Source: Isosphaeraceae bacterium
GTDB taxonomy: Bacteria > Planctomycetota > Planctomycetia > Isosphaerales > Isosphaeraceae
Reading direction: 5' to 3'
Length of the DNA: 43,853 nt
Assembly (NCBI GenBank): GCA_025356475.1
Contig: JANXSX010000040.1
Coordinates: 1-43,853, forward strand
Position numbers and translations under genes: made by a program. Numbering within the stretch: position 1 is the stretch's first letter; each line of letters opens with the position of its first letter. Of this stretch, positions 36,186-38,124 are shown one piece after another. The notes under the pieces are model-generated. The model had not been told where the DNA came from. It ran no database searches and saw only the letters and a program-made list of their open reading frames with translations.

Positions 36186-36463
36186 TGTTGAGAAAGTGAG
36201 ACTCAGCGGGGGATCGTTGAGTCTGCCCCATGTTGCCCAGGAGGATTGCAAAGTCCGTCCCTTCCCGAAAGAGAAAGTCGGGATCGAACTTCGTAACTCT
36301 TCTGCCTGCGGAAGATGCCCAGTTCCCCCAGGCGATTGCTTTGCCTAGAATCGAGAGTGTCGTCAATGACGAAAAGATCAGTAGACTGAACACCACGCTG
36401 AATCCTCGCGTATTGGGATAAGTGGGTTCATGGATCGGATCGATTGAGGGAGCGAATTCAGCT

Positions 36464-37270
36464 ATGAGTCGAGACCTTGCAAAAATCCTGGCCGGTTGGG
36501 AGCACGACCCTGATGAATTCCAGGTTCGCCTCGTCGCAGGCGACGATGGTCGCGAAAAGATCCAAATGCGAATCGACTTAGGGCTCTTACAGATGGAGCT
36601 TGAGGGTCGGCCCGACGGCACAAAACCACATGGCTTCGATACCTTGCTTGAGTATCACATAGCGCGTGCTAAGATCGCCCGCCCCACCGATTCCGAGGAG
36701 CCGTACACCCTCGACGCGAAAGCGTGTACCGGCCTGATGAACGAAGGCGTCCAGTTCTATCACCGGTATTTGGCGTCGTTTCATCTCCAGCGCTACGACT
36801 TGGTGGCTCGCGATACCTCGCGCAACTTGCGACTGTTCGCATTTGTGGTTGAGCATGCCGCTCGCCAGCGAGACAAGGTCCAGTTCGACCAGTACCGGCC
36901 TTATGTAACGATGATGCACTCTCGTGCGACGGGTCTTCAGGCGCTCTCGAAGAACGACCACGTGGGGGCCATCGAGCATATCGACGAGGGGATCGTCGGT
37001 ATCCGGAAGTTCCTTGAGGATTACGACCAGTCGGAGAACGAGGCGGAGTGCATGGAACTCGGGTTCTTGCTCCGGTGGCGTCGGGAGCTGGATCGCGATC
37101 GACCGATCGGTCCCGTTGAGCGTTTGGAGCAGCAACTTGGGGTGGCCGTGGCACTTGAGGAATACGAAGAAGCGGCGAGGCTCCGTGATCAGCTTCAACG
37201 TCTCAAGGGCGACGAGACCGTGAACGCCGGGCCTGAAGGAATTGGGGCACAACCCGTTGATCTGCCTTGA
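36464..37270 (+). CDS. UVR (UvrB/UvrC) motif-containing protein
   Basis: A 268-residue helical protein. The C-terminal 40 residues form a UVR motif, VERLEQQLGVAVALEEYEEA followed by ARLRDQLQRL, which mediates protein-protein contacts in UvrB, UvrC, ClpC and McsA. The N-terminal part (LAKILAGWEHDPDEFQVRLV) and the central helical repeats, with tetratricopeptide-like periodicity, have no named family that I recognise. It is cytoplasmic, with no signal peptide. ATG 36464 follows GAGGGAG at about 12 bases. The gap 36186-36463 contains no supportable gene. The 6S-like promoter starts inside its stop codon region. Confidence 0.78.
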   Translation: MSRDLAKILAGWEHDPDEFQVRLVAGDDGREKIQMRIDLGLLQMELEGRPDGTKPHGFDTLLEYHIARAKIARPTDSEEPYTLDAKACTGLMNEGVQFYHRYLASFHLQRYDLVARDTSRNLRLFAFVVEHAARQRDKVQFDQYRPYVTMMHSRATGLQALSKNDHVGAIEHIDEGIVGIRKFLEDYDQSENEAECMELGFLLRWRRELDRDRPIGPVERLEQQLGVAVALEEYEEAARLRDQLQRLKGDETVNAGPEGIGAQPVDLP

Positions 37271-37295
37271 TTGATGACCGATTTCGGGCTAGACT
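37267..37295 (+). promoter_or_regulatory. Sigma-70-type promoter of the 6S RNA candidate
   Basis: TTGATT (37267-37272) and TAGACT (37290-37295) are separated by exactly 17 bases, each matching 4/6 of the consensus. The -35 element overlaps the end of the UVR-protein gene. The predicted start at about 37303 coincides with the 5' strand of the closing stem of the RNA described below. Confidence 0.6.
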
Positions 37296-37302
37296 TACCC
37301 CT

Positions 37303-37484
37303 GTTCCATCTCGGTGGGATAAGTCTCTGCCATGTTCGCGACAGGCGTTCTTTTGGCGAACCAATGAGCACCCGTTGGGGGCCTATTTCACGGCCGTTCG
37401 GCATGTCCGTTCTGGTCTATGGCTCCCACCTATTAATTGCGGGTTCTCAAAAGCGCTTCAGACGGCATTGCGGTGGAGGTTTTT
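37303..37484 (+). ncRNA. ssrS: Candidate 6S RNA upstream of 5-formyltetrahydrofolate cyclo-ligase
   Basis: About 182 bases between a promoter and a TTTTT run (37480-37484), close to the usual 6S length. By hand it folds as 6S RNA does. A closing stem joins 37304-37316 to 37466-37478 with 12 of 13 pairs, including G-U. An internal bubble carries a side hairpin, GTTCGC with GCGAAC. A long distal stem starts with GAGCACCCGT against GCGGGTTCTC (9 of 10 pairs), then TGGGGGCC against GGCTCCCA (8 pairs). The position just before the fau/ygfA gene is the classical synteny of ssrS. 6S RNA binds the housekeeping RNA polymerase as a promoter mimic and represses transcription in stationary phase. This is a candidate because no covariance search was possible. 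Confidence 0.72.
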
Positions 37485-37536
37485 ACTTCGGCCCTCGCCC
37501 TTCTCGGACTTGTCCGGGACGGACGAGGGCCGAAGT
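37485..37536 (+). terminator. Nested hairpin between the 6S candidate and fau
   Basis: ACTTCGGCCCTCG (37485-37497) and CGAGGGCCGAAGT (37524-37536) form a perfect 13-bp stem. The 26-base interior can form a second short stem (TCTCGGAC with GTCCGGGA). It is followed by CTTTG, so the U-tract is weak. It may terminate or protect the 6S candidate, or modulate fau, whose ATG is 22 bases downstream. Confidence 0.6.
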
Positions 37537-37557
37537 CTTTGATGGAGTCGGGCTCCG

Positions 37558-38124
37558 ATGACAAAACGAGCCCTTCGCAGACAGGTCATCGCCCAAATCC
37601 TCACGATGCAGCCCGTCATTCGATCGGCCCAAGAAGCGGCATTGGTGGCCCTCCTTCCCCAACTCCCTGGGTTTGCCAACTCACGTGTAATCCTGCTTTA
37701 CGCGTCGCATTTCCCCGAGGAAATCGACACCAAGCCGATCATCGACCTCGCTATCTCGCAAGGTAAATTCGTCGTCTTGCCTCGGATCGATCTGACGACC
37801 AGGCGACTTGTCCTTCACCTCGGTGGGGAAACGACCCCAGGGGTGTTGGAGATCCCCGAGCCGTTGGCGACGAATCCGGTCATTGTTCCCAGGCTGATCG
37901 AGTGGGCGTTGGTTCCTGGGGTCGCGTTTGACCGCGCTGGGAACCGACTCGGCCGAGGCGGTGGCTACTATGACAAGCTGCTCCCCGAGCTTCGGGCCGA
38001 GTGCCCGCGCTGGTCCTTGATCCTCGAGCCGCAATGGGTCGAGGCCGTTCCGGTTGAGGCGCATGACATCCGGGTTCATGGGGTGGCGAGCCCCTCTCAA
38101 ATCGTGGAAATCGACCCACGATGA
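37558..38124 (+). CDS. fau: 5-formyltetrahydrofolate cyclo-ligase
   Basis: A 188-residue enzyme converting 5-formyl-THF to 5,10-methenyl-THF with ATP in one-carbon metabolism. It has the N-terminal KRALRRQVIAQI helix, the ILLYASHFPEEIDTKPIIDL segment, the substrate-binding VLPRIDLTTRRLVL strand and the family signature GVAFDRAGNRLGRGGGYYDK. GGAG lies upstream of ATG 37558. Its location after the 6S-like RNA repeats the ssrS-ygfA arrangement of proteobacteria. Confidence 0.92.
   Translation: MTKRALRRQVIAQILTMQPVIRSAQEAALVALLPQLPGFANSRVILLYASHFPEEIDTKPIIDLAISQGKFVVLPRIDLTTRRLVLHLGGETTPGVLEIPEPLATNPVIVPRLIEWALVPGVAFDRAGNRLGRGGGYYDKLLPELRAECPRWSLILEPQWVEAVPVEAHDIRVHGVASPSQIVEIDPR

Follow-up and report, generated by a model that had tools for sequence, protein, structure and literature searches.

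The window, a 43,853-nt stretch of DNA from an Isosphaeraceae bacterium (contig JANXSX010000040.1), carries a gene with a UvrB/UvrC (UVR) motif, a predicted promoter, a structured RNA with a hairpin on either side and the 5-formyltetrahydrofolate cyclo-ligase gene fau, all on the plus strand (Table 1). A first-pass annotation had proposed that the 6S RNA of this organism, a small RNA known for sequestering RNA polymerase, is encoded upstream of fau. The cyclo-ligase gene that it named as the downstream neighbor is substantiated by its Pfam match and starts 75 bases 3' of the RNA.

Table 1. Features of the 6S RNA locus and its neighbors in the window.
Feature	Position	Strand	Remarks
UVR-motif gene (UvrB/UvrC motif)	36422..37270	+	PF02151; its end overlaps the -35 element
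Predicted 6S promoter	37267..37295	+	Direct sequence; recurs in most relatives
5' leader hairpin, UGUUCCAU-CUCG-GUGGGAUA	37302..37321	+	Lies at the predicted start; not covered by the Rfam 6S consensus
6S RNA body	37321..37483	+	RF00013 model positions 1-187
Closing stem, 5' strand (outer part)	37325..37331	+	Pairs with 37472-37478
P2/downstream helix, 5' strand CUUUUGGCGAACC; predicted pRNA template	37350..37362	+	Pairs with 37442-37453
Distal 5' central bubble UGAGcACCCGU; 5' strand of the alternative helix	37365..37375	+	Minimum-energy fold
Shared 3' strand GCGGGUUCUCAAAAG	37439..37453	+	Pairs with the P2 5' strand or the distal 5' bubble
Closing stem, 3' strand (outer part)	37472..37478	+	Pairs with 37325-37331
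Strong hairpin between 6S and fau	37485..37536	+	52 nt, GC-rich; weak T tract CTTTG after it
fau, 5-formyltetrahydrofolate cyclo-ligase	37558..38124	+	PF01812, 115.9 bits, 2.6e-33

The Rfam 6S/SsrS model RF00013 matches 37321-37483 on the plus strand over its full length with a score of 48.4 bits, which exceeds the curated gathering score (46.4 bits) by a small margin of 2 bits. The match is significant, with an E-value of 8.5e-7 when the whole window is compared with all 4227 families and of 2.7e-8 at whole-genome scale. A genome-wide covariance-model search returned the window locus as the single RF00013 match in the 5.9-Mb genome, and a permissive Rfam scan of 37200-37600 (E up to 1) found no family besides RF00013. 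R1, a covariance model built from 30 Isosphaeraceae sequences, scores the window RNA at 140.5 bits, the window sequence being part of its training set. The RNA shares with the 6S family a rod with closing stem, helix P2, central bubble and apical stem that is backed by comparison of relatives, and it occurs as a single gene. It differs in its shorter body, which measures 163 nt compared with 187 model positions and with ~182-229 nt in other aligned families of the class, in an extra 5' hairpin ahead of the closing stem and in a separate hairpin after it. Given a score above gathering, a sole match in the genome and arms that covary across the Isosphaeraceae, the last being a check that the first-pass annotation had itself suggested, its identification stands. 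We conclude that the locus is almost certainly a genuine 6S RNA gene of the known family and ordinary in kind.

The minimum-energy fold contains the three elements that had been described by the first-pass annotation: a closing stem (CUCUGCC../..GGUGGAG), an internal bubble with a small side hairpin and a long distal stem. A 237-nt stretch folds 4.3 standard deviations better than its shuffles, which is partly owed to the hairpin after the RNA. Across 37 aligned relatives, 96.3% of the cells in the consensus structure are paired and 14 of 41 pairs have changed on both sides. The covariation score of 0.234 compares with 0.138 for shuffled and at most 0.081 for slid controls, the shuffles controlling in part for kinship. 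The outer closing stem varies so little in these relatives that most of its pairs are uninformative as to covariation. It is the leader hairpin, together with the inner helix and apical stem, that provides the structural support.

R1 detects the RNA in 42 of 45 Isosphaeraceae genomes, including all 26 of good quality (at least 90% complete, at most 5% contaminated), most of the genomes scanned having been in its training set. Genomes outside the training set (G004, G005, G009, G015 and G039) match at E-values of 4e-16 to 1.5e-32. RF00013 is above its cut-off in only 16 of the 45, so the Rfam cut-off overlooks most Isosphaeraceae 6S copies and a lineage-specific model repairs recall. The expectation that the sequence may be too diverged for a simple similarity search fails for the window copy, which is found, and is correct for most relatives, which fall below the Rfam cut-off. 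A 17-bit RF00013 match in G039 (L038) was rejected as spurious; R1 placed the true 6S elsewhere in that genome. In the class as a whole, R1 matches occur in 162 of 248 genomes (Isosphaeraceae genomes of the sample included), and 94 of the 391 genomes sampled from the phylum have an RF00013 match above the cut-off. A genome study of Thermogutta terrifontis, a planctomycete, reported that it has no 6S homolog and cited the same lack for Pirellula and Rhodopirellula (PMC5673643). A large part of the phylum does carry 6S RNA. Within family f3 of the class-wide search, G308 and G490 have a clear R1 match and g25, g28 and g32 have none with either model; loss or further divergence could account for this patchiness.

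The predicted promoter comprises a -35 element TTGATT (37267-37272), a 17-base spacer and a -10 element TAGACT (37290-37295), with a predicted start at ~37302. It lies where the first-pass annotation had drawn it. The promoter did not rise above the threshold of a stricter generic sigma-70 scan and was judged by its recurrence in relatives instead. The pattern TTG...-17-TANNNT is found at the corresponding place in most of them, retaining both spacing and hexamers.

From the predicted start to 37483 the RNA would measure 182 nt, in agreement with the length of the transcript proposed earlier. Its proposed end in TTTTT is less sure, since the hairpin at 37485-37536 comes next. The TTTTT (37480-37484) directly follows the closing stem, an arrangement seen in many other planctomycetes too; there the T tract may itself be the terminator. 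In the window, the strong hairpin between the RNA and fau means that the T tract may not end the transcript. A 65-nt stretch containing this hairpin folds at -40.4 kcal/mol (z -7.2), and comparable 3' hairpins (z < -2) are found at 32 of 42 Isosphaeraceae loci versus 6 of 27 loci from planctomycetes outside the family. The hairpin is probably a terminator, and the mature 3' end could lie either near 37483 or after the hairpin.

The gene neighborhood is well kept within the family. The order UVR gene, 6S, fau recurs in most Isosphaeraceae loci, with the UVR gene upstream on the same strand and fau ~60-270 bases from 6S. In the window and in nearly all Isosphaeraceae loci, 6S lies directly upstream of fau on the same strand. 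In G006 (L026), 6S and fau are on different contigs, and in G034 (L103) ~1.2 kb lie between 6S and the fau domain of a reading frame of ~400 codons. The arrangement resembles that of many Proteobacteria; ygfA/fau adjoins 6S in Proteobacteria and some Firmicutes (PMC9130861; PMC7641849). Outside the Isosphaeraceae, the fau profile found no match within ~1.5 kb of 6S in 30 loci of the phylum or in 20 loci of the class, and in all 14 genomes from other families that possess fau it is unlinked to 6S, lying on a separate contig or at a great distance. The conserved placement ahead of fau, as first annotated, thus applies within the Isosphaeraceae and does not extend to the other planctomycetes sampled. 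Because fau is unlinked there, descent from the proteobacterial ssrS-ygfA arrangement does not follow; the Isosphaeraceae linkage may be independent, or old and lost elsewhere. Two loci of family f94 (L084, L086) have a UVR gene directly upstream of 6S and lack fau there, and the UVR-6S linkage may therefore be older than the 6S-fau linkage. No PF01812 match was found in 12 of 28 planctomycete genomes, compared with 11 of 14 control genomes that have one, so many genomes of the phylum may lack fau.

The closeness of fau to 6S in nearly all Isosphaeraceae, the weak T tract of the hairpin ahead of it and the dicistronic ssrS-ygfA transcript of Escherichia coli (PMC7641849) would also suit a structure that acts chiefly in cis, as a leader of fau whose 3' hairpin is a regulated terminator, instead of a free-standing RNA. 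In other planctomycetes, however, the same RNA stands away from fau (linked in 0 of 14 genomes with fau, and in 0 of 30 phylum loci within 1.5 kb), which argues for an RNA independent of fau and makes the leader reading exceedingly improbable. The RNA could act both as a 6S RNA and as a fau leader. The hairpins that flank the body, together with the central bubble, recall Ms1 of Actinobacteria, a structural relative of 6S with further short hairpins at both of its ends (PMC9130861). An Ms1-like RNA would bind core polymerase rather than holoenzyme. This too is very improbable, as the window RNA matches 6S alone in Rfam at E up to 1 (release 15 of which may hold no Ms1 model), its body of ~163 nt falls well short of the ~300 nt of Ms1, and its neighbors are the UVR-motif gene and fau, the latter as for some 6S genes, rather than the HAD hydrolase/oxidoreductase of Ms1 (PMC9130861). 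A 6S RNA remains the preferred reading of the locus.

The 5' side of this 6S RNA carries a feature of its own. The Rfam match begins at 37321, and 37302-37321 is thus an extra 5' hairpin and not part of the closing stem. Most Isosphaeraceae have ~23-31 bases between the -10 element and the closing stem, and these contain a small hairpin. An anchored 6-bp version is common to 34 loci from 17 genera, with 202 of 204 cells paired versus 180 on average and 190 at most after swaps of the 3' arm (kinship partly controlled); four of its pairs have changed on both sides in the 37-relative alignment. The hairpin is absent in genera g18 (most clearly in L003) and g5, where the -10 element is near the 6S start. 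An inverted repeat at the predicted start could alternatively be a DNA palindrome, an operator to which a regulator dimer binds, and such a role would be compatible with a 6S RNA in the remainder of the locus. Many of the pairs are G-U (T-G occurs, for example, 11 times at the second pair and 5 times at the third), which breaks the symmetry of the DNA while keeping the RNA helix, and loop length ranges between 4 and 6 bases. These features favor an RNA hairpin and leave an operator unlikely. The RNA hairpin probably guards the 5' end or guides trimming, 5'-end protection being our likeliest guess. We tentatively speculate that the Isosphaeraceae have a variant 6S RNA that retains the 5' hairpin, and perhaps the 3' one, when mature, with altered stability, processing or polymerase preference, the fau linkage being secondary and independent of the proteobacterial one; this is possible though doubtful.

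The central part of the RNA appears to be able to form two competing helices. P2 pairs the 5' strand at 37350-37362 with GGUUCUCAAAAG in the window and covaries phylum-wide (A-U to G-C, C-G to U-A), with variants such as GAACC/GGUUC, GAGCC/GGCUC and GAGCU/AGCUC. Among 105 sequences, 24 P2 cells have changed on both sides compared with at most 10 in 500 shuffles (kinship partly controlled), and an alignment-free test of own against swapped strands gives z -14.2. The alternative, collapse-type helix pairs UGAGcACCCGU with GCGGGUuCUCA in the window. A column count on a plain MAFFT alignment, in which the 5' bubble is poorly aligned, gave 63.1% paired cells with shuffles reaching 63.4%. The helix was therefore judged by the alignment-free swap test with control windows in place of the column-wise count. 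Across 85 sequences, its own strands beat swapped ones with z -7.6 to -10.4 (kinship partly controlled), whereas control windows lie between -2.9 and +3.4. The swap test, on which the case for this helix depends, makes it likely though not proven. In L097 and L163, all three strands have changed together (GAGCU, GCUCG, CGAGCUC). P2 and, likely, the collapse-type helix thus appear to be maintained across the phylum as mutually exclusive partners of one shared strand.

The retention of both helices matches the expectation for release driven by a product RNA (pRNA). A helix formed upon collapse of the central bubble is known from Bacillus subtilis 6S-1 and Aquifex aeolicus 6S (PMC8876501). As in these RNAs, the distal 5' bubble of planctomycete 6S can pair with the P2 3' strand, and this helix seems to be evolutionarily maintained; the proposed planctomycete rearrangement differs in being supported by sequence comparison. 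The predicted pRNA start base in relatives is often C, like C40 of B. subtilis 6S-1. The covariation of the two helices supports the idea of a pRNA-driven switch conserved in another phylum and, together with the lineage-specific hairpins and the low Rfam recall in Isosphaeraceae, lends the locus modest interest.

Family membership, the conserved arms and the maintenance of P2 and its competitor are read from sequence, and on this basis we infer a course of transcription, polymerase binding, pRNA synthesis and release. The housekeeping promoter would direct an RNA starting near 37302, whose rod-like body, as expected of a 6S family member, would mimic an open promoter and capture the RNA polymerase holoenzyme that contains the primary sigma factor, probably once growth slows down. 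Upon regrowth, the polymerase would take the 5' bubble as template for a short pRNA. This pRNA is predicted to begin opposite U37365, which we take to be the start by analogy with U44 of E. coli, and to run back through GAACC, beginning with AUUGGUUC. Its synthesis would open P2, and the freed 3' strand CGGGUUCUC could then pair with the distal 5' bubble in the collapse-type helix, releasing the polymerase. The 3' hairpin would probably terminate the RNA with some read-through into fau. A side hairpin UUGG-CGAA-CCAA (37350-37365) is present in the minimum-energy fold and near-invariant in Isosphaeraceae, and the predicted pRNA would bear the complementary hairpin UUGG-UUCG-CCAA.
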